Source of the DNA: Actinopolymorpha singaporensis
GTDB taxonomy: Bacteria; Actinomycetota; Actinomycetes; Propionibacteriales; Actinopolymorphaceae
NCBI RefSeq assembly: GCF_900104745.1
Contig: NZ_LT629732.1
Location: 186,001-250,000 of the forward strand
Length of the DNA: 64,000 bases
Reading direction: 5' to 3'
Positions within the stretch are counted from its first letter, which is position 1. Each line of letters starts with the position of its first letter. Of the stretch, positions 9,746 to 23,893 are shown piece by piece. Below the pieces are notes generated by a model. The model saw nothing but the letters and a program-made list of their open reading frames with translations, was not told the DNA's origin and searched no databases. Both the position numbers and the translations under genes were made by a program.

Positions 9746-10312
9746 ATGACCACGTTTCTCGAAGCACCCTCCGGTATCACCCCGGACCTCTACCGCGCGG
9801 TCTTCCGCCGGTACGCCGCGGGGGTCGTCATCGTCACCGCGGACGCGGGGTTCGGCCCGGTGGGCTTCACCGCGACGTCGCTCGCGTCGATCTCCCTGGA
9901 TCCGCCGCTGGTGTCGTTCGCCCTGTCCACCAACGCCTCGAGCTGGCCCACCATCGCCGCCGCCGAGAGCGTGGTGGTCAACTTCGTCGGGGCGCACGAC
10001 CACACTCTCGCGGCGAGGTTCGCGACCAGCGGTATCGACCGTTTCGCCGGCCCCACCCGGTGGTCGCGGCTGCGCACCGGTGAGCCGGTGCTGGACGACG
10101 CGGCGGGACACCTGCGCGGGCGGATCGACTACCGCTACCCGGTCGGCGACCACCACCTGGTGGTCGCCGAGGTCACCGCCGCCGCCACCAGGCAGCACGC
10201 GCCGCTGGTCTACCACGCCGGAACGTACGCCACGGTAGGGCCGACGCCAACGCACGCTCCGACGTCGGCGCCATCGCCAGTGCCCACACCGGCGCCGGCA
10301 CCGCCCGCCTGA
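9746..10312 (+). CDS. Flavin reductase (DIM6/NTAB-like, FMN-binding split barrel)
   Basis: The 188-residue protein belongs to the flavin reductase family that supplies reduced FMN to two-component monooxygenases. Typical features are the start of the fold at YRAVFRRYAAGVVIVTA, then GFTATSLASISLDPPLVSFAL, the flavin-binding core. GGAGG at 9736-9740 sits five bases before the ATG at 9746. A nearer upstream ATG at 9734 would overlap this site, so the later start is preferred. The last 25 residues are a Pro/Ala/Thr tail outside the conserved fold. It is the last gene of the operon, partner of the monooxygenase just upstream, and is followed by a strong terminator. Confidence 0.9.
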   Translation: MTTFLEAPSGITPDLYRAVFRRYAAGVVIVTADAGFGPVGFTATSLASISLDPPLVSFALSTNASSWPTIAAAESVVVNFVGAHDHTLAARFATSGIDRFAGPTRWSRLRTGEPVLDDAAGHLRGRIDYRYPVGDHHLVVAEVTAAATRQHAPLVYHAGTYATVGPTPTHAPTSAPSPVPTPAPAPPA

Positions 10313-15062: not shown

Positions 15063-17012
15063 TCAGCTCGGCTTTATGTAGTACTGGCAGGGATTCGTCG
15101 GGGCGGGCGACATGTAGACCCAGGCGCCCTCGGTGGTGAACTTCGGCCAGTTGCCGATCTTGTTCGCCACCGTGCCGTAGCCGTTGGGCAGCATCGCGAT
15201 CCCGATGGCGTGGAAGCGCTGCTTGGCGATCCGCAGGATCTCCTTCATCAACCGGACCTGTTCGTCCATGTCGGACGTCGCGTTCACCTTGTCGTACAAC
15301 GCCATCTGCTGCCGGACGTCGGCCGGCGGACGCTCGCCGGCCTTGCCCTTCGTGTTGTACCACTCCGCCCACTTCACCCCGAAGAACGAGTACGGGTTGA
15401 GCAACGGCAGGTAGTTGTAGGGGTTCAGCAGCACCACGCCGTCCAGGCCACCCTCTCCCGCCCACACCGAGAAGTCGTGTTTGTTGGCCTGGCCGCGTTC
15501 GACCACGATCTCCGGGCTGCCGGTGTTGACGTGTGCGTCGATGCCGACCTTCTGCCAGAAGTTGACCACCAGTGCCAGCACGTCCGCCCAGGTGGGGACG
15601 ATGGTGGCCACGTCGACGAGGAACGAGATGGGCTTGCCGTCCGGTCCCAGGCGCACTCCCCTGGCGTTCTTCTTCGGGTACTCCTTGTCCAGGATCTCGT
15701 TCGCCTTGGCCACGTCGTACTCGGTGTACTGCGTGGCCATCTCCTTGTCGAGGTAGGTCGACTCCTTGCGAGGCGCCACCTGCCAGGGCTCACCCTGCCG
15801 CTGGAACACGGCCTTGATGATCTCCCGCCGGTTGATCGCGTACGACAACCCGACCCGGAAGTTGCGGTTGTTGAAGATCTCCCGCTTGACCGGGTCCTCG
15901 TGGGTGAGGTTGGGGTAGATGCAGGCGACGTTCATCGCCTCGGGCACGACGTCGAACAGCCGGAAGTTGCCGCGGTCGCGGTACTTCGCCACGACCGGCT
16001 TGTCCTTCAGCTGCGGCGTGGAAACGTCGATCTCGCCGTTGAGCGTCTTGAGCAGAGCGGCCTCGTCGTCGCCCACCACCTGGTAGACGATCCGGTCGAT
16101 GTAGGGCAGCTGGCTGCCCTCCGGGTCGACCTTCCAGTAGTACGGGTTGCGTTCCACCACCACCTGGGACTTCTGGTCGGAGGAGGTGGTGAGGACCCAC
16201 GCGTACAACGTCGGCTTGTGCGGGTTGCGGCCGAAGCTCCAGGTGCCGCCCACGTCCTGCAGGACGGCGATCCCGTCCTTGAAGCCGATCTTCTTGGCCT
16301 CGGTGGCGTGCTGGGGGTTGTACTTCGGGTGGAAGCGTTCGAGGTAGTGGCGGGGGTAGTCGGTCAGTGCCGCGCCGCGCCGGGTGGCGAGGTAGTTGAC
16401 GAACGTCCCGTTGGGCTTTGTGAAGGTGACCTTGACGGTGTGGTCGTCCACCTTGGCGGCCTTCATGTCACCGAACGGCGGGACCGAGGTGATCCGCTTG
16501 TCCATCAGGATGTCCTGGACGGCGAACACCACGTCGTCGGGCCCGAACGGCTTTCCGTCCGACCAGCGCATGCCCTCGCGGAGCACGAAGACGTACTCCG
16601 TGCTGTCGGCGTTGACCTGGTAGCTGGTGGCGATGTCCGGGATGACCTTCTTGAACGTCGGGTCCCAGCGCACGAGGTTCTCGTACCCCGCGAAGGAGTA
16701 GATGGTGGCCGCGTCGCTGTAGGCCTCGCCGGACAGCCGCAGGTGCCAGGCGCCGCCGTACCTCCCGACCTTCTCGTTCGGCTGCACCACCAGCGGTTTG
16801 CTGGGCAACCTGTCCTTGACAGGGGGCAGTTTCCCGGCCTTGACCTGGGCGGCCAGCGCGGGTGGTTCCTTGGTCTTCTTCGCCGTGCCGGCGTCGGAGT
16901 CACTGCCGGTGGGCTTGGTGGACAGGAAGCTGCACGCGCTTCCGGTCACCGCGACCGTCACGGCGACACCACCCACCCGCAGGACGTCCCGTCGGGTCAC
17001 CGCTCCTGTCAT
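15063..17012 (-). CDS. ABC transporter substrate-binding lipoprotein, family 5 (peptide/oligosaccharide type)
   Basis: The 649-residue protein starts with a Tat signal (TRRDVLRVGGVAV) followed by the lipobox GSAC, so it is an exported, lipid-anchored receptor. The body matches SBP_bac_5 proteins: MRWSDGKPFGPDDVVFAVQDI, the repeat of DYPRHYLERFHP, and a C-terminal Trp-rich region. Members bind oligopeptides, nickel complexes, oligosaccharides or opines. I chose the ATG at 17012 because AGGAGG lies five bases upstream and it starts exactly at the Tat motif. It follows a phytanoyl-CoA-dioxygenase-like gene on the same strand by 33 bases. No permease or ATPase gene is adjacent, so it must share a transporter encoded elsewhere. 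Ligand unknown. Confidence 0.9.
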   Translation of the reverse strand: MTGAVTRRDVLRVGGVAVTVAVTGSACSFLSTKPTGSDSDAGTAKKTKEPPALAAQVKAGKLPPVKDRLPSKPLVVQPNEKVGRYGGAWHLRLSGEAYSDAATIYSFAGYENLVRWDPTFKKVIPDIATSYQVNADSTEYVFVLREGMRWSDGKPFGPDDVVFAVQDILMDKRITSVPPFGDMKAAKVDDHTVKVTFTKPNGTFVNYLATRRGAALTDYPRHYLERFHPKYNPQHATEAKKIGFKDGIAVLQDVGGTWSFGRNPHKPTLYAWVLTTSSDQKSQVVVERNPYYWKVDPEGSQLPYIDRIVYQVVGDDEAALLKTLNGEIDVSTPQLKDKPVVAKYRDRGNFRLFDVVPEAMNVACIYPNLTHEDPVKREIFNNRNFRVGLSYAINRREIIKAVFQRQGEPWQVAPRKESTYLDKEMATQYTEYDVAKANEILDKEYPKKNARGVRLGPDGKPISFLVDVATIVPTWADVLALVVNFWQKVGIDAHVNTGSPEIVVERGQANKHDFSVWAGEGGLDGVVLLNPYNYLPLLNPYSFFGVKWAEWYNTKGKAGERPPADVRQQMALYDKVNATSDMDEQVRLMKEILRIAKQRFHAIGIAMLPNGYGTVANKIGNWPKFTTEGAWVYMSPAPTNPCQYYIKPS

Positions 17013-17045: not shown

Positions 17046-17867
17046 CTACCAGCGATCCAGGCCCAGCAGGCGCCGGCCCAGTGAGGTCAGCTCGGCCGGC
17101 CGGCCGCGCGCCGCCTCGATCCCCCGGGGGTCGCCGGGGAAGGCACGGTGGTGTGCGGGCGGGCGGTTCTCCTGCCAGGCGGCGATGCGTGCCTGCCGCG
17201 CCTGCTCGTCGTTCTCCCGTGCGGGGTTCATCGAGATGTACTGCGCCAGCCGGGGCCGGTCGGTGTGGTTGTCGCCGTTGCCGTGCGCCAGCAGGCTGGT
17301 CCAGATGACCATGTCGCCGGCGCGCAGCGGCACCTGCACCGGAGTGTGCTCGGTCAGGTCCGCCTGGCGGGACCGGCCGTACTTCTCCAGGTAGGAAGGG
17401 AGGTTCTGGTAGATGCTCGGGACGCACTGGAAGCCACCCATGTCCTCGGTGGTGTCGGCCAGTGCAAGCACGCCCTGCACACCGAACGGGATGTCGGGAT
17501 ACCGCTCGAGATCGGTGTCCCAGTGCAGGAATCCCCGGTGGTGGTAATCGGGGTAGTCGGGAACCGACGGCGGTTTGAGGTTCGTACGGTCGATGCTCAC
17601 CCAGAGCCGTTCGCTGCCGAAGATCTCGGCGAACACCTCGTGCACCCGCTCGTCCTGACGGGTGTCCCACATCGACTGGTAGTGATACATCTCCACCATG
17701 CCGGTGGGTGCGATCCGGTCCGGGGCGTACCACGTCCTCGGGTCGTTCGGGTCGGCGCCGGTGTGGCGCCAGATGTCTGCCACCACGGCGTCCACGTTCT
17801 TTCTCGGGACCACGCCGGGCACCACGACGTAGCCCTGTTCGTCGATGCGGCGACGAAGTTTCGACAT
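17046..17867 (-). CDS. Phytanoyl-CoA dioxygenase (PhyH) family protein
   Basis: The 273-residue enzyme belongs to the non-heme iron, 2-oxoglutarate oxygenases of the PhyH family. The iron-binding HxD is visible in FLHWDTD (residues about 115-121) and the distal His lies in the LAHGNGDNHTDRPRLAQYIS segment, where the Arg should hold 2-oxoglutarate. Bacterial members hydroxylate small molecules or natural-product precursors. The ATG at 17867 has GAGGAG six bases upstream, better than the longer reading. It leads a two-gene operon with a solute-binding lipoprotein, suggesting that the imported compound is its substrate; this is inference. Confidence 0.88.
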   Translation of the reverse strand: MSKLRRRIDEQGYVVVPGVVPRKNVDAVVADIWRHTGADPNDPRTWYAPDRIAPTGMVEMYHYQSMWDTRQDERVHEVFAEIFGSERLWVSIDRTNLKPPSVPDYPDYHHRGFLHWDTDLERYPDIPFGVQGVLALADTTEDMGGFQCVPSIYQNLPSYLEKYGRSRQADLTEHTPVQVPLRAGDMVIWTSLLAHGNGDNHTDRPRLAQYISMNPARENDEQARQARIAAWQENRPPAHHRAFPGDPRGIEAARGRPAELTSLGRRLLGLDRW

Positions 17868-18119
17868 GCGGATCTCCTCGGCCGGAGCCACTGCACGCGG
17901 AATTTCGCCTTCTGCCTAACAGGCGGGATCGGGGCCGTCAAACAACTGGCCGCCCACGGTCAGCAATCAACCGACGCCGGACCCGTTTGGCGGCTGTGTG
18001 CGGGTTGGGAAACCAGCAGTTGGCAGTACGAGAGCCCGCAGGCGCATGCGCACACAGCGGGTTCGCCGCTGCCCCGGCCGGACACAAACCGACGGCCGGA
18101 CAGACCTGAGGGGGTTCGG

Positions 18120-18785
18120 GTGGGTGCGCTGCGATCCGTCGCGGACCTGGTCTGCTCGGCTGTCGCCGTGGCCGGTGGCCTGCTTCTGCTGTGGGCCGGT
18201 CTCGGCCACGCGCGCGAGTTCGGCCGGCTCCGGGCGACTCTTCTGTCACACGGCCTGCTGCCCGGTGGACAGCGCCGCGCCGGCGCGGCCGTGCTCGTGG
18301 CGGCCGAGGTCGGCGTTGGCGGTGCCGTCATCACGGGCGTCCTGTCCTCGTTGCGCGGGTCCTCGGCTCTGCCGAGCAGGCTCGTCCTGCCCGCGATGGT
18401 CGGCGAGGCCCTTGTCTACACAGGATTTCTGGCGTACCTGACGGTGTTGCGCCGCGTCCGTCCGGGAGCGGCCTGCGGTTGCCTGAGTGGCGACGGGCCG
18501 GTCCGGGCACCCGTCCTGGTGCGGGCCGGAGTGTTCGCCGTGGCCGCGGCGGTCACCGCGCCTCTCGCCCGCAATCCCACTCCGTTCCTCGGCAGCCTGA
18601 CCGGGCTGGGTCGGCTCGCGTCGGTGTCCGTACTCGTCCCGGCACTGGTCCTCGCCGTTCTCGCCGCCCTGCTGCCCGGCTCGCTTCGGGTCGCATCGGC
18701 AGCCCAGGCGACCAGCGCCGACGCGCCCGGCGGCCGTCCGCTCGCCCAACCGTCGTCTCGAACCACCTCGCTCCGGAGGCAGTGA
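18120..18785 (+). CDS. MauE/DoxX-family redox-associated membrane protein
   Basis: The 221-residue protein has four to five membrane helices and the Cys-Gly-Cys loop (AACGCLSG, about residues 117-124) characteristic of MauE-like proteins. In methylotrophs MauE, with MauD, is needed to form the disulfides of the methylamine dehydrogenase light chain in the periplasm. Here it heads a tight run of six plus-strand genes that ends with a Tat-exported cysteine-rich protein, the likely client. Translation probably starts at the GTG at 18120, with GAGGGGG about six bases upstream. Its stop overlaps the next start by one base. C-terminal 30 residues are low in complexity. Confidence 0.82.
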   Translation: MGALRSVADLVCSAVAVAGGLLLLWAGLGHAREFGRLRATLLSHGLLPGGQRRAGAAVLVAAEVGVGGAVITGVLSSLRGSSALPSRLVLPAMVGEALVYTGFLAYLTVLRRVRPGAACGCLSGDGPVRAPVLVRAGVFAVAAAVTAPLARNPTPFLGSLTGLGRLASVSVLVPALVLAVLAALLPGSLRVASAAQATSADAPGGRPLAQPSSRTTSLRRQ

Positions 18786-19354
18786 TGGAAGCTCTTGTCG
18801 GCGCGGTCGTCCTCGCCTGGTTGGCGTTGGTGCTCCTCGCCTTCGCGATGGCCGGCATCCTGCGCCAGCTCCGCGACCTGCAGGCCGCAGTCGCCGCGGC
18901 CGGCGTGGTGGGCCTGGCCGCCGCGACGGACGGTGGAGCGGACGGTGTGGGAACGATCCCGGACAAATCCGAGACGCCGCTGTCGGTACGCCCACGAGAC
19001 GATGCGGTGTGCGCCGTCGTCCTGCTCGTGGACGACAGCTGCCCGGTGTGCGCGGAGGTCGCGCCCCACTTCGACGACCTGGCGAACAAGTCCTCGGCGG
19101 CGGTGGACTTCGTGGTGCTCGCCCGGGCGCCGGTGGCGAAGTTCACCGGGCTCACCGGCGCGCGGTTCGTCGCGGACCCGGCCGCCTGCCACCTGCTGGA
19201 CCCCGGCTGGCGGCCGGCGATCGTGGTCCTCGACCGGGCCGGTGCCATGGTGACCCGCGAACCGGCCGGCTCGAAGAAGGTCGTCGAAGCGGTGGTCACC
19301 GACGCCGAGGCGCTGGCCGAGGCCTCCACCTCGGCCCGCACCCGGGACGGCTGA
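18785..19354 (+). CDS. MauD-like thioredoxin-fold membrane protein
   Basis: The 189-residue protein has one N-terminal membrane helix (residues about 4-25) and a thioredoxin-like domain behind a flexible linker. The active-site motif is CPVC in VDDSCPVCAEVAPHFDDL (near residue 85). In Mau systems MauD is the membrane-tethered thiol-disulfide protein acting with MauE. The start codon overlaps the MauE-like stop by one base, implying coupled translation. The redox domain should face outside. It lacks some of the usual thioredoxin length, so assignment rests on topology, motif and neighbour. Confidence 0.8.
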   Translation: MEALVGAVVLAWLALVLLAFAMAGILRQLRDLQAAVAAAGVVGLAAATDGGADGVGTIPDKSETPLSVRPRDDAVCAVVLLVDDSCPVCAEVAPHFDDLANKSSAAVDFVVLARAPVAKFTGLTGARFVADPAACHLLDPGWRPAIVVLDRAGAMVTREPAGSKKVVEAVVTDAEALAEASTSARTRDG

Positions 19355-19361
19355 CGTCGCC

Positions 19362-19634
19362 ATGTCCACCAGGGAAGAGTCCACCAGGGAAGAGTCCACC
19401 AGGGCCGGGTCCACCGGCGGCGGCGCCGTCGGGGCCGGCGCCGCCGGCGGGACCCGCTCCCCCCGCGCGCGCCGGCGCCAGACCCATCCGCTGGTGCCCG
19501 GTGCCGTGCTGGTCCTGGCAGCACTGGCGGTGCCCGCTCTCACCTACTTGTGGGCGTTCGCCACCGCGCCGGTCCTGCTGGCCTGGGTCGTGCTGGCCCT
19601 GGCCGCGGGCTACTCCATCTCGGGTTCGGTATGA
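19362..19634 (+). CDS. Small two-helix membrane protein of the Mau-like module
   Basis: The 90-residue protein has an N-terminal Ser/Thr/Glu/Gly tail that includes a short direct repeat (STREE, from a 15-bp DNA repeat at 19366-19395), a basic RRRQTHP patch, then two hydrophobic segments covering about residues 45-88. It starts eight bases after the MauD-like gene and ends 15 bases before the next, so it belongs to the operon. I recognise no family. It may be a subunit or anchor of the membrane complex. Confidence 0.6.
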   Translation: MSTREESTREESTRAGSTGGGAVGAGAAGGTRSPRARRRQTHPLVPGAVLVLAALAVPALTYLWAFATAPVLLAWVVLALAAGYSISGSV

Positions 19635-19649
19635 AGCCACAACTCGGCG

Positions 19650-20210
19650 ATGCTGGTCTCGTCGGTCTGGCGAGAACGTTCCCGGTGGTGGTTCAGCGCC
19701 GGCCTGCTGGCCGGAGGCCTCACCAGCTCGGTGGTGGCGGTGGCGCTCGGCCTGTTGGTGCGGCCGGTACTGCGCCCGGTCCCGGCCTCGGTGCTGGTCG
19801 CCGCGGTCGCCGTCCTGGTCGGCCTGAACGAACTCGGCGTCCTGCGGCTCCGGCTGCCGCAGAACGGCCGGCAGGTTCCGGAGTCGATCGGGGACGACGG
19901 ACCCCGCTACGGCGCCCTGCACTTCGGCTTCGAGATGGGCACCGGCGTGCGCACGTACATGACCACCGGCCTTCCCCACGTGCTGGTGCTGGCCGTGGCG
20001 CTGTGCGCGACCTGGCCGCAGGGGCTGGCCGCCGGGCTGGCGTTCGGCACAGGGCGGGCCGCCATGGTGCTGGCCCGGCACGCTCATCGCGACGACGGCC
20101 ACTGGGACGCCCAGCTCGCGGCGTACGACCGAACTCTGCGGCTGCTGCTCACCTTCGCCTGCTGTTGCGTCCTGGCCGCGGTCCTGCTGGCCGCCACCCG
20201 AACCGGCTGA
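19650..20210 (+). CDS. Integral membrane protein of the Mau-like module (possible MauF counterpart)
   Basis: The 186-residue protein has four to five membrane helices with a loop containing GALHFGFEMGTGVRTYMTTGLP between them and a CCC cluster in the last helix (FACCCVLAA, about residues 170-178). I cannot place it in a family with certainty. Mau clusters also contain a polytopic protein, MauF, of unknown role, and by position this could be its counterpart. The vicinal cysteines in a membrane helix fit electron or disulfide transfer. Start ATG at 19650 follows the small membrane gene by 15 bases. Confidence 0.6.
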   Translation: MLVSSVWRERSRWWFSAGLLAGGLTSSVVAVALGLLVRPVLRPVPASVLVAAVAVLVGLNELGVLRLRLPQNGRQVPESIGDDGPRYGALHFGFEMGTGVRTYMTTGLPHVLVLAVALCATWPQGLAAGLAFGTGRAAMVLARHAHRDDGHWDAQLAAYDRTLRLLLTFACCCVLAAVLLAATRTG

Positions 20211-20280
20211 CCGGCCTCCCACCCTCCATCGCCCCGACCCGACGCGACTGACCCGCCCTGACCGGCCCTGACCGACCACG

Positions 20281-21081
20281 ATGACGACAGGAGTCACGGT
20301 GCACCACCACCAGTACGCCGCCGAACGAACGCACTTCCGCGCCGCGGACGGCAGCCGGGTGACGCTGTGCGCACCCGGATACGACCTGACCGAGCCGTGG
20401 TCGGCATCGGTCCGCATCACCACCAACCGGCCGTACGCGGGTACGCCGGAAGGTCTCGACCTGCGCCACCTGCACATCGCCAGGGCCGGCAACTACGACC
20501 ACGTCCTCGAGCGCGTCGTCGACGGGCACTGGAGCAACGTCGTCCAGATGCAGGGGGGACAGTGCATGATCGGCCACAGCGACTCGGCCGACCAGGGCCT
20601 CGCGGTGTGGCGGGGACCCTGGCACGAGGCGGCGACCTGGCTGCCCGACCCGAAGATGCCGGGTTCGCACGTACTCCGGTACTTCGCCGGGCTGGGCTTC
20701 CACGACAGTCCGCACGGCCTGCGGGTGATCGCGGCCCGGCCCGCGGTGCACAACGTCGAGGTGCTCGAGGTCAGCAAGCGGGTACCGGAGGTCGGTCACC
20801 TCGACATCCGTCAACCCGCCCTTGCCCACCGGCTGGTGCCGGTGTGGTCGGGCGCACCGGTGCCCACCGGTGAGGTGTGGGCCGAGGAGGTTTCCCCCTG
20901 GTCGGAGAAGTCGCCGGCCGGGTCGGACATGGTCGTCATCCACGCCACCCCGTCCACCGTGACGACCCTCCCCGGCGAAGGCGACCACAAACACCTCTGC
21001 GAGCGACGGGTGGAGTTCCTGCACCGGGTCACCGAAATGTGCTGGGCACGCGAGAGCACCCACAAGGAGAAATGGTCATGA
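20281..21081 (+). CDS. Unrecognised soluble protein in the Mau-like module
   Basis: The 266-residue protein has no signal peptide or membrane helix. It is His-rich and contains four Cys (TLCAPG, GQCMIGH, HLCERR, EMCWAR) and the striking stretches HIARAGNYDHVLERVVDG and WRGPWHEAATWLPDPKMPG. I find no family for it. It overlaps the following Tat-protein gene by four bases (ATGA), so the two are translationally coupled and probably act together. It might be a cytoplasmic chaperone or modifying enzyme for the exported protein, or the catalytic partner. A role as oxygenase or metal enzyme is only a guess from the His content. Confidence 0.75.
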   Translation: MTTGVTVHHHQYAAERTHFRAADGSRVTLCAPGYDLTEPWSASVRITTNRPYAGTPEGLDLRHLHIARAGNYDHVLERVVDGHWSNVVQMQGGQCMIGHSDSADQGLAVWRGPWHEAATWLPDPKMPGSHVLRYFAGLGFHDSPHGLRVIAARPAVHNVEVLEVSKRVPEVGHLDIRQPALAHRLVPVWSGAPVPTGEVWAEEVSPWSEKSPAGSDMVVIHATPSTVTTLPGEGDHKHLCERRVEFLHRVTEMCWARESTHKEKWS

Positions 21082-21647
21082 CCGCTGACATCCCCACGAT
21101 CCCGAGCGCGAGCACGCCGCCCGCGAACGCCACGCCGAGCGCGGTGCGCAAGCTGATCGAACGCGACCACATCAACCGCCGCAGCCTGCTCAAGGGCGTC
21201 CTGACCACGGGCATGGTGCTCGGGCTGAGTGCTCTCGACCTGCTGCCCGGCCGTAGCGAGGCGCAGGCCAGCCGGCACGGCGGTGATCCGTGGGAGTACT
21301 GGAGCAACTGCCGCGACTACAGCAGCGGCTCCCAGCGGACCGACTGGCGGTGGTGCAACCCCGACGCCGCGCGGGTGAGCAGACGCTACTGCAAGCCCGA
21401 CATCAGGCGGCACCGCACGGCCGTCGACGGCACGTGGCGGGACGAGTGTGAATACGAGGACTACCGCATCGACTTCCGGTGCTGGAACCTCGCCGGCACC
21501 GAGGTCGTCAACGCCTGGGTCTGGCGGCGCGGGCAGTCCGGCGGCAACCTGCCGAGCGTGATCTGCTCCGACGGCAAGACCTACGTCCTGAACGACTGCG
21601 GGCCGGACTATCACTACAAGTCCGCGTGCCGGGAGTACCTCGAGTAG
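21078..21647 (+). CDS. Tat-exported cysteine-rich protein, possibly MauA-like light chain
   Basis: The 189-residue precursor has a twin-arginine signal (NRRSLLKGVLTTGMVLGLSALDL, about residues 29-52) and a cleavage region near SEAQA. The mature part of about 130 residues has eight Cys and nine or so Trp. Its C-terminal ICSDGKTYVLNDCG resembles the DGK-Y-x4-DCCG block of methylamine dehydrogenase light chain (MauA), which is also Tat-exported, disulfide-rich and matured by MauE and MauD. It is shorter than MauA and lacks the C-terminal region holding the second Trp of the TTQ cofactor, so it is not a canonical MauA. AAGGAGA lies seven bases before the ATG at 21078. Tat export fits folding, or cofactor insertion, before secretion. 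Confidence 0.8.
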   Translation: MTADIPTIPSASTPPANATPSAVRKLIERDHINRRSLLKGVLTTGMVLGLSALDLLPGRSEAQASRHGGDPWEYWSNCRDYSSGSQRTDWRWCNPDAARVSRRYCKPDIRRHRTAVDGTWRDECEYEDYRIDFRCWNLAGTEVVNAWVWRRGQSGGNLPSVICSDGKTYVLNDCGPDYHYKSACREYLE

Positions 21648-21742: not shown

Positions 21743-22204
21743 ATGCAGACGTTCCTGCCGTACGCCGACTTCGCCGCCTCGGCCCGGGTCCTCGACCAAC
21801 GTCGGCTGGGCAAGCAGCGGGTCGAGGCGCTGCAGGTGCTGCGGGGGCTCACCGTTCCCGACTACGGCTGGCGGCACCACCCGGTGGTGCGGATGTGGAC
21901 CGGCTACCCGGAGGCACTGGTGAGGTACGGGCTGGAGGTCTGCCGGGTCTGGACGGGAACCGGACGTCAGGACACCTGCGCCACCAGCCTGCGGGCGGAC
22001 TTCACGCAGTTCACCGGGCGCGAGGAGATCCGCGAGCAGCCCGCCCTCGCCGGCGCCGGTGAGCTGCCGCCGTGGCTGGGGGACCCGGACTTCCACCGCA
22101 GTCACCAGTCCGCGCTGGTCCGCAAGGACGCCGCGACGTACGGCGACCTCTTCCCCGGCGTACCTCCGGATCTGCCCTACGTCTGGCCGAAGTCCGACCG
22201 CTGA
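21743..22204 (+). CDS. MSMEG_6728-family protein (pyrimidine-dimer glycosylase-like)
   Basis: The 153-residue protein starts MQTFLPYADFAASARVLDQR, followed by LGKQRVEALQVLRGL and a C-terminal HRSHQSALVRKD. This pattern belongs to the MSMEG_6728 family, related to the pyrimidine-dimer DNA glycosylase/endonuclease V fold. The conserved HRSHQ segment is where such proteins bind DNA or nucleotide. Activity in actinobacteria is not established to my knowledge. It is 95 bases after the Mau-like module; the gap carries a repeated GGTTCGCCCGG, so it is probably a separate unit. Confidence 0.85.
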   Translation: MQTFLPYADFAASARVLDQRRLGKQRVEALQVLRGLTVPDYGWRHHPVVRMWTGYPEALVRYGLEVCRVWTGTGRQDTCATSLRADFTQFTGREEIREQPALAGAGELPPWLGDPDFHRSHQSALVRKDAATYGDLFPGVPPDLPYVWPKSDR

Positions 22205-22249: not shown

Positions 22250-23047
22250 TCAGCTCCGGTCGTTGGCCAGCAGCCGCTCGATGCGGTCCAGCATGTCCTC
22301 CAGGGACAGCTCGAACTCCAGGTCGGTGTGGTCCTGCGACAGGAGCGTCTCCAGCCGCTGGATGTGGGGGTAGCCGTCCAGCGGCATCGGTGAGGGCGGC
22401 GGGGAGTTGGCCACCTCGGTCAGGGAGTCCTCGGCGACGGTGCGGCCACTCATCGTGGACACCTCCAGCAGGAGGTAGCCGAGCAGGTAGCTGGTGAAGG
22501 CGCGGTAGGCCATCACGGCGTTCTCCATGCTGAACCCACGGTCGACGAGGGTGGCGAGGAAGTCCTCGACGACGTCCAGGCTGCGCAGCGGCGGCCGCAG
22601 CCAGGGCGCTGCCGGGTGCCGGGTGGCGATCAGCGGGAACAGCTGCGGATGCTGGCGGGCCAGCCGGCGCACGGCGTGCGCGAGCCACTGGAGGTAGGCC
22701 TGCCAGCCCGGGCCGGCGAGGAGCTCGCGCCGGGCGCTGTCCACGTGCAGGCTGTCCACCATCCGGCGGACGATCTCCTCCAGCAGGTCCTCGCGGCCGT
22801 TCACGTAGCGGTAGAGCGACATCGCCTCCACGCCGAGGTGCTCGCCGAGGCGGCGCATGGTGAGCATCGCCAGGCCGTGCTCGTCGACGTACTCGATCGC
22901 GGCGGAGACGATCAGGTCGCGGTTGAGCGCGCCGCGCCCGGAGGCCTGGTGGTCGTGGGTCCGCGCCGGCCCGGCCGACCGCGTCGACCCGGCCGACCGC
23001 GTCGACCTGTCACCGCCTGGTGCTTGCGGTGTCCCGGGTGGGTTCAT
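22250..23047 (-). CDS. TetR-family regulator (TetR_C_1 type)
   Basis: The 265-residue repressor has a disordered N-terminal tail with repeated TRSAG, then a TetR helix-turn-helix (LTMRRLGEHLGVEAMSLYRYV, about residues 62-82) and a ligand domain of the tetracycline-repressor C-terminal type. AGGAG lies seven bases before the ATG. Two palindromes, at 23140-23152 and 23168-23188, lie 93-141 bases upstream and are good candidates for its own operators. The divergent gene is a WhiB. Its recognition helix (GVEAMSLYRYV) is close to that of the second TetR of this window (DVNPMSLYHHV), whose operators share the core TACACCGTA. Ligand unknown. Confidence 0.9.
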   Translation of the reverse strand: MNPPGTPQAPGGDRSTRSAGSTRSAGPARTHDHQASGRGALNRDLIVSAAIEYVDEHGLAMLTMRRLGEHLGVEAMSLYRYVNGREDLLEEIVRRMVDSLHVDSARRELLAGPGWQAYLQWLAHAVRRLARQHPQLFPLIATRHPAAPWLRPPLRSLDVVEDFLATLVDRGFSMENAVMAYRAFTSYLLGYLLLEVSTMSGRTVAEDSLTEVANSPPPSPMPLDGYPHIQRLETLLSQDHTDLEFELSLEDMLDRIERLLANDRS

Positions 23048-23308: not shown

Positions 23309-23893
23309 ATGGCGCGACGGCGTGCCGCCGTCCCAGGTGGTCGAAGAAAGCCGATGCCCGCCCGGTCGCGGGCGTGGCATCTGGAGGCTGCCTGCGTCCA
23401 CGCACCTGACGGGCTGTTCTACGGGCCGGAGGGCGAGAAGCCCCCGGAGCGGTTGGCCCGCGAGGCCCGCGCACTGGAGTTCTGCGCCGCCTGCCCGGTC
23501 CTCGAACCCTGCCGCACGCACGCCCTCGCACTGCCGGAGACCTACGGCGTGTGGGGTGGGACCACCGAGGCCAACCGGAACGCCGTCCGCCGCGGGCGGA
23601 TCAGTGCGTCCGCCCTGCCGGCTCCCGGGCCGGCCCGGGTGACGGCGCGGGCGTCGTCACTGCCCGCACCCGAGTCTGCGACCGCGACGGTCCAGACGTC
23701 GTCATTGCCCGCACCCGAGTCTGCGACCGCGACGGTCCAGACGTCGTCATTGCCCGCACCCGAGTCTGCGACCGCGACGGTCCAGACGTCGTCATTGCCC
23801 CATCGCGGCGAGCAGCGTGCCGACGTCGACAGTGGCGAAGCCGACCCGGGTGTCGCTTGCGCCGTAGGGCAGCCAGAGCGTCCCGGCGTGTAG
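23309..23893 (+). CDS. WhiB-family iron-sulfur regulator with a repeat-expanded tail
   Basis: The N-terminal 90 residues match WhiB proteins: one Cys in AACVHAP, then CAAC and CPVLEPC, giving the four [4Fe-4S] ligands. The turn motif GVWGGTTEANR and a basic RRGR patch follow. WhiB proteins bind a cluster and regulate transcription with the main sigma factor. The remaining tail consists largely of a 15-residue unit (SSLPAPESATATVQT) repeated three times, encoded by a 45-bp perfect repeat. The last 34 codons run antisense through the end of the GH130 gene. The tail may be the result of a recent expansion and loss of the original stop. The start is uncertain; an ATG at 23354 is also possible. 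Confidence 0.8.
   Translation: MARRRAAVPGGRRKPMPARSRAWHLEAACVHAPDGLFYGPEGEKPPERLAREARALEFCAACPVLEPCRTHALALPETYGVWGGTTEANRNAVRRGRISASALPAPGPARVTARASSLPAPESATATVQTSSLPAPESATATVQTSSLPAPESATATVQTSSLPHRGEQRADVDSGEADPGVACAVGQPERPGV
23661..23795. repeat. Three perfect 45-bp tandem repeats in the whiB tail / GH130 end
   Basis: Units begin at 23661, 23706 and 23751 and each starts TGCCCGCACCCGAGTCTGCG. The period is a multiple of three, so the WhiB-like frame stays open. The GH130 gene of the other strand takes its stop codon (23792-23794) from the last unit. Identity of all copies implies recent expansion. Size, coding context and lack of spacers exclude a CRISPR array. Confidence 0.92.

Follow-up and report, generated by a model that had tools for sequence, protein, structure and literature searches.

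We analyzed a compact gene cluster in a 64,000-nucleotide stretch of the Actinopolymorpha singaporensis genome (RefSeq assembly GCF_900104745.1, contig NZ_LT629732.1, positions 186,001 to 250,000 of the forward strand; hereafter the window, with positions counted from its first letter). The cluster lies on the plus strand at 18120–21647 and encodes relatives of the Mau proteins MauE, MauD and MauF, an unrecognized soluble protein that we call P266, and a cysteine (Cys)-rich protein with a twin-arginine translocation (Tat) signal. The gene of the MauF relative is interrupted by an in-frame TGA that most likely encodes selenocysteine (Sec). A first-pass annotation had described six tightly packed plus-strand genes, two of them for separate membrane proteins. 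Open reading frame (ORF) reading and comparison across genomes confirmed the cluster and its spacing but not the gene number: the membrane ORFs at 19362–19634 and 19650–20210 share one frame, its sole break being the TGA at 19632–19634, and they therefore form a single TGA-interrupted gene, giving five genes instead of six. The features are as follows.

18120–18785, plus strand: MauE-like membrane protein with a Cys-Gly-Cys (CGC) loop, 221 amino acids (exceeds the Pfam MauE cut-off at E 1.9e-10; Paracoccus-type MauE aligns at 97.9% in hhalign).
18785–19354, plus strand: MauD-like thioredoxin-type protein with an N-terminal membrane anchor and a CPVC motif, 189 amino acids (falls short of the NCBIfam MauD cut-off at E 6.5e-6; Paracoccus-type MauD aligns at 98.3% in hhalign).
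19362–20210, plus strand: predicted MauF-family membrane selenoprotein, 282 amino acids (single frame broken by a TGA, whose flanking residues are conserved in all 20 copies).
19632–19634, plus strand: TGA codon, most likely Sec, in the context SGSV-U-SHNSA (some more distant relatives have TGC here).
19657–19675, plus strand: hairpin resembling a bacterial Sec insertion sequence (SECIS), with an 8-bp stem and an apical GUC within GGUCU, 30 nt past the TGA (stem-loop scan).
20281–21081, plus strand: P266, soluble, lacking a signal peptide on visual inspection (in all 20 module copies).
21078–21647, plus strand: Tat-exported Cys-rich protein, 189 amino acids, eight Cys, the presumed client (NCBIfam Tat signal over its cut-off; in 20 of 20 copies).

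The MauE and MauD genes overlap by 1 nt, a 70-nt gap precedes P266, and P266 overlaps the Tat gene by 4 nt. For the Tat ORF, the ATG at 21078 is the more likely start, favored over 20877. The earlier calls of a MauE-like membrane protein with a CGC loop, a MauD-like CPVC protein and a Tat precursor with eight Cys were upheld by the profile comparisons, with the NCBIfam MauD match being weak and far below its cut-off.

Kinship with the Mau system was assessed using hhalign against Paracoccus-type mau profiles of seven rows each. The Sec protein aligned with MauF over 167 columns (97.1%, E 5.4e-11), against 0.07–0.23% for the five other Mau proteins, and its Sec column fell on the Cys of the MauF motif STWSPC. 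No NCBIfam or Pfam model matched over its cut-off among the eight family rows scanned, and the few matches were weak; Paracoccus MauF itself matched nothing in the domain scan, while Pfam DsbD_2 came just over its cut-off in two of four scanned wider relatives (L101 and L120). On profile comparison, the Sec protein is thus a MauF relative, and the MauF, MauE and MauD profile matches together place relatives of the whole MauD/E/F trio in the module. The mau cluster of Paracoccus denitrificans (NC_008688) shares this trio, with a Cys where the module has Sec. The module differs further in having another Tat protein and P266, and a search of 21 module stretches with the MauA, MauB and MauJ models gave no hit at E 0.1, in line with the first-pass observation that the module holds no MauB.

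To study the conservation of the TGA, we searched 394 sampled genomes of the class for the Sec protein family with a stop-tolerant method and obtained matches in 18 genomes. The strong set comprised 17 loci in 14 genomes (E 5.6e-45 or better) and, with the addition of three congeners, gave 20 copies in 17 genomes. Each of the 17 strong loci contained exactly one internal TGA, and none was found within the aligned part of the four weak matches. All 20 copies read SGS[VT]-TGA-[ST]xNS, with residues conserved on both sides of the TGA, and the Sec position was the sole invariant Cys-type column in alignments of both 8 and 21 rows. These patterns bear on a different explanation of the locus, in which the TGA is an ordinary stop between two translationally coupled membrane proteins. 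An ATG does follow the TGA by 15 nt in the window, but the in-frame S-x-N-S-A between the TGA and that ATG is conserved, and no Met is present there in L028 or in the second copy of L026. Moreover, the codon is TGA in all 20 copies and never TAA or TAG, and some more distant relatives are uninterrupted, with Cys at that place. We consider coupled genes highly improbable; the TGA at 19632–19634 most likely encodes Sec, which is presumably inserted in vivo.

A selenoprotein gene would be expected to show a hairpin behind its TGA, and we searched for stems of at least 7 bp with a 3-nt apical loop starting GG or GU, located 16–37 nt after the codon. Such a hairpin was present in 20 of 20 copies, compared with 1.71 of 20 expected from synonymous shuffles preserving the protein, and followed just 5 of the 507 TGA trinucleotides of the window. 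The best hairpin had its loop 30 or 33 nt past the TGA in 19 copies, and a hairpin at one or the other place was present in all 20. The bacterial SECIS definition given in PMC13188914 describes a loop of 3–9 nt with G in the first two places and a stem of 4–16 bp, 16–37 nt past the UGA; scored without its energy limit, this definition fits all 20 copies. Among seven stem pairs, changes on both sides were found at pairs 5, 6 and 7 (in one, three or more, and one copies, respectively), and pair 3 alternates between U–G and C–G. The window's genome also has a formate dehydrogenase gene with an in-frame TGA, and the loop of the stem behind it, GGTCT, is like that of the module. Under a looser hairpin score applied to the wider family (L122 was left out), the 20 scored TGA members reached 11–15, while the six Cys members scored 8, 9, 10 or nothing.

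The genomes carrying the module are also equipped to use Sec. All 14 strong carriers have a gene for the Sec tRNA (tRNA-Sec), which was found in 101 of the 394 class genomes overall (hypergeometric 2.6e-9); the carrier and tRNA-Sec samples were taken to be the same 394 genomes, as their size and listed handles agree. All three congeners with the module have tRNA-Sec, and SelB exceeded its cut-off in seven of seven module genomes tried. In the window's genome, matches to the SelA and SelB models lie beside the tRNA-Sec, in addition to the TGA-bearing formate dehydrogenase gene. In several genomes the machinery lies near the module itself: tRNA-Sec was located about 10 kb or less from a module in six genomes (G365, G237, G529, G475, G456 and G447) and the selD family about 6 kb or less at six loci (three of the six checked with the SelD model), and the SelA neighbor at one locus was checked with the SelA model. 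Neither the Tat protein nor P266 was matched in two further sampled congeners, G018 and G026; in G018, no SelB exceeded the cut-off and the sole tRNA match was the 52-bit one that other genomes show beside a stronger match. In the wider family, tRNA-Sec was found at E 1e-10 in 23 of 28 TGA-bearing genomes, seven of which were assigned from the phylum search alone, against one of six Cys-bearing genomes; G672, G724 and G217, in which no Sec place was read, were excluded from this count. Two genomes, G447 and G675, contain two tRNA-Sec genes each.

The Sec gene keeps constant company. In all 20 copies, the genes for MauD, P266 and the Tat protein share its strand and lie no more than 2.5 kb away; the MauE gene does so at up to 3.5 kb in 17 of 20. 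The genes therefore stay together across homologous loci, with five of the six ORFs in every copy, which passes the test set by the first-pass annotation, namely that its reading would fall if the Tat and unrecognized proteins were missing from most such loci. In three congeners (L012, L013 and L014), the module is syntenic with the window, with 69–94% identity across the six ORFs. Outside the sample, a search of plasmid records retrieved a Nonomuraea gerenzanensis record with two module places, both having the P266, MauD, Tat and Sec genes in this order and one also having MauE; both contain the TGA, with an 8-bp hairpin 33 nt behind it. The record carries no gene table for this region. Among the weaker Tat matches, L022–L024 were left aside and L025 is the Tat gene of the L082 module; another weak match, L010 (G159), was dropped as it sits in a gene read by eye as a transhydrogenase. 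Besides the module genes, the families recognized among those common to at least three neighborhoods were sel genes, an ECF sigma factor and TetR, and several of the clusters were off-frame ORFs. In two copies without MauE, a small CxxC protein (YDGACGSC type) without a Pfam name is encoded directly after the Sec gene (L026:5831-6165, second copy, and L028 around 9956–10300).

The exported protein varies in sequence around a fixed core. In a 20-row alignment of the mature region, C21, C36, C48, W90, W92, C106, D108 and C127 were invariant, whereas the number of Cys ranged from 6 to 13, and two of the 20 copies contain peptidoglycan-binding repeats. The AlphaFold2 model of P266 is confident, with a mean predicted local distance difference test score (pLDDT) of 85.9. 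Foldseek retrieved nothing for it at E 0.001, and its best VIA structural match had a Z of 6.8 and a root-mean-square deviation of 8.0, below the tool's caution line of Z 8; the weak structural neighbors, all under this line, included PsbP/Mog1-like proteins, immunity proteins and effector chaperones. As a candidate MauJ, P266 was rejected, showing no similarity (hhalign 0.07%).

Two alternative roles for the Cys-rich protein were weighed against these data. The protein could be a secreted redox enzyme or a quinone-cofactor protein, that is, an orphan MauA-like light chain. Its partners' kinship with MauF, MauE and MauD and the invariant W-x-W would fit such a role, and its leader aligns with that of MauA (hhalign 24.6%, leader only). 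The mature domain, however, has no similarity to mature MauA (0.11%), for which the identification as MauA was rejected; the same 21 stretches gave no MauB hit, and no cytochrome family was recognized among the families shared by at least three neighborhoods. We find this role quite improbable. The second alternative is a cluster for a ribosomally synthesized and post-translationally modified peptide (RiPP) or bacteriocin, in which the Cys-rich protein would serve as the precursor of a secreted antimicrobial, MauD/E/F would modify it and P266 would provide immunity or act as a chaperone. The strong divergence of the client sequences is consistent with this, as are the immunity proteins and effector chaperones among the sub-threshold neighbors of P266. 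There is also a precedent: the passages available from the decRiPPter study of Streptomyces (PMC7794033) describe three candidate families that contain mauE, and in one case mauD too, beside genes for predicted precursors of at least eight Cys each. Compared by description only, these clusters resemble the module in that arrangement but differ in that no selenoprotein, MauF or Tat export is named in those passages. Furthermore, the client bears a Tat signal, Cys, Trp and Asp residues are invariant across its domain of about 100 or more amino acids, and the peptidoglycan-binding repeats of two copies give it more the look of a wall-associated protein. A RiPP cluster is therefore an unlikely explanation, and we favor the Cys-rich protein as the presumed client of the module, its disulfides presumably being matured by MauD/E/F.

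Similar gene arrangements extend beyond the 20 copies. A phylum search of 246 genomes gave matches in 34, the window's included, and at the Sec place of 24 further loci (L101–L124) we read TGA in 19 and TGC in 5. Among the four weak class matches, L069 and L070 have TGA and L067 has TGC, while L068 (G217) is without a readable Sec place; the Cys forms of the wider family are thus L067, L108 and L116–L119. Other MauF types (L126–L137, L086 and L087), with Sec or Cys, have an analogous layout with MauD and an exported Cys-rich protein: all 14 compared loci contain MauD and MauF, 12 contain a Cys-rich protein of one family, and an unnamed family contributes a small protein to 12. The seven inspected members of the 12-locus family have a twin-arginine leader, as does the different Cys-rich protein of L136 and L137, which belong to a third MauF type, and LGFP repeats occur in two of three scanned clients of these other types. 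The MauA model matched the two third-type proteins (L137 at 1.8e-7, mostly in the leader, and L136 at 0.007); for the clients of the WSP type (seven sequences), a 63% match to full-length MauA begins in the leader and falls to 0.53% against mature MauA. The recurrence suggests a general plan of MauD/E/F with a private exported client. More tentatively, at somewhat less than an even chance, Actinomycetota may possess a class of selenium-dependent oxidative-folding systems in which MauD/E operate with a selenoprotein MauF of at least three types (SGS[VT]-U-[ST]xNS, WSP-U-GxS and P-U-GxSMxET), each having its own exported, often wall-attached Cys-rich client with peptidoglycan-binding or LGFP repeats.

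Taken together, we consider it very probable that the cluster is a selenium-dependent MauD/E/F module that introduces disulfides into a secreted Cys-rich protein, in some cases a wall-binding one. The computed part of this interpretation consists of the single TGA-interrupted frame, the hairpin, the Sec machinery, the Mau kinship and the fact that the genes for MauD, P266 and the Tat protein accompany every copy of the Sec gene. Under the proposed mechanism, Sec would sit in a membrane segment of the MauF-type protein, where MauF has the Cys of STWSPC, and MauE with its CGC loop and MauD with its CPVC thioredoxin-type domain would be its thiol partners. Sec may exchange with the MauE CGC or MauD CPVC faster and more reversibly than a Cys would. 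MauD/E/F would thus move oxidizing or isomerizing equivalents, and partners outside the membrane would oxidize or isomerize the Tat protein after its export, while the cytoplasmic P266 probably binds the precursor of the Tat protein beforehand. Both the part assigned to P266 and the direction in which electrons would flow are inferred.

Several observations weigh against this interpretation. None of the 20 module copies has Cys at the Sec place, a form confined to more distant relatives, and the copies are mutually related, so that the counts do not represent independent events. AlphaFold2 gave a mean pLDDT of 43 for the mature Tat domain, too low for a usable model, so that its disulfides are putative. 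MauE is missing near three of the 20 copies, and a third MauF-like gene of Nonomuraea, between the two modules (L125, around 16040–16640, near 16167), has a TGA at what seems to be the corresponding place but was negative in the hairpin test. Congener G026 has SelB and tRNA-Sec without a match to the Tat protein or P266, which makes the module dispensable. Finally, tRNA-Sec was not found at E 1e-10 in five of the 28 TGA-bearing genomes of the wider family, one of which, G597, is a single contig and 97% complete, and it was present in one of the six Cys-bearing genomes.

The genes surrounding the module were recorded as well. A PhyH-family dioxygenase gene (17046–17891, minus strand) is divergent from the module, and a pyrimidine dimer glycosylase-like gene (Pfam Pyr_excise; 21743–22204, plus strand) lies just downstream, followed by a TetR gene (22250–23047, minus strand); all three also stand beside the module in the three congeners. 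Farther on, a WhiB-like protein (Pfam Whib; 23309–23893, plus strand) contains the in-frame tandem repeat SLPAPESATATVQT in its C-terminal part.

We found no report of a MauF selenoprotein in the literature searched. A 2026 review catalogs 119 prokaryotic selenoprotein families (PMC13188914), and its table has no MauF-type entry; the families of Haft and Tolstoy 2025 were covered through that table only. The closest listed entry by label is TsoB (NF045694), a rhodanese/DsbD fusion-like selenoprotein whose label combines a DsbD type with Sec, as the DsbD_2 matches of L101 and L120 recall. By description, the module protein differs in having no rhodanese domain (Pfam) and one Sec in SGS[VT]-U-[ST]xNS, and its NCBIfam matches are weak and unrelated. 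The MauF relative most likely represents a new selenoprotein family within a variant of the Mau maturation machinery that has an undescribed client.

The finding adds to the known selenoproteins a family whose genes are cut into two by ORF finding, and places Sec at the membrane step of an actinobacterial extracytoplasmic thiol-disulfide system. To our knowledge, the chemistry of MauF is unsettled; as Sec marks the reactive residue, that chemistry becomes testable. Some thirty exported Cys-rich proteins gain a likely dedicated maturation machine and, if the broader class of selenium-dependent folding systems is real, its clients may represent novel cell-surface proteins with a redox function or a cofactor.

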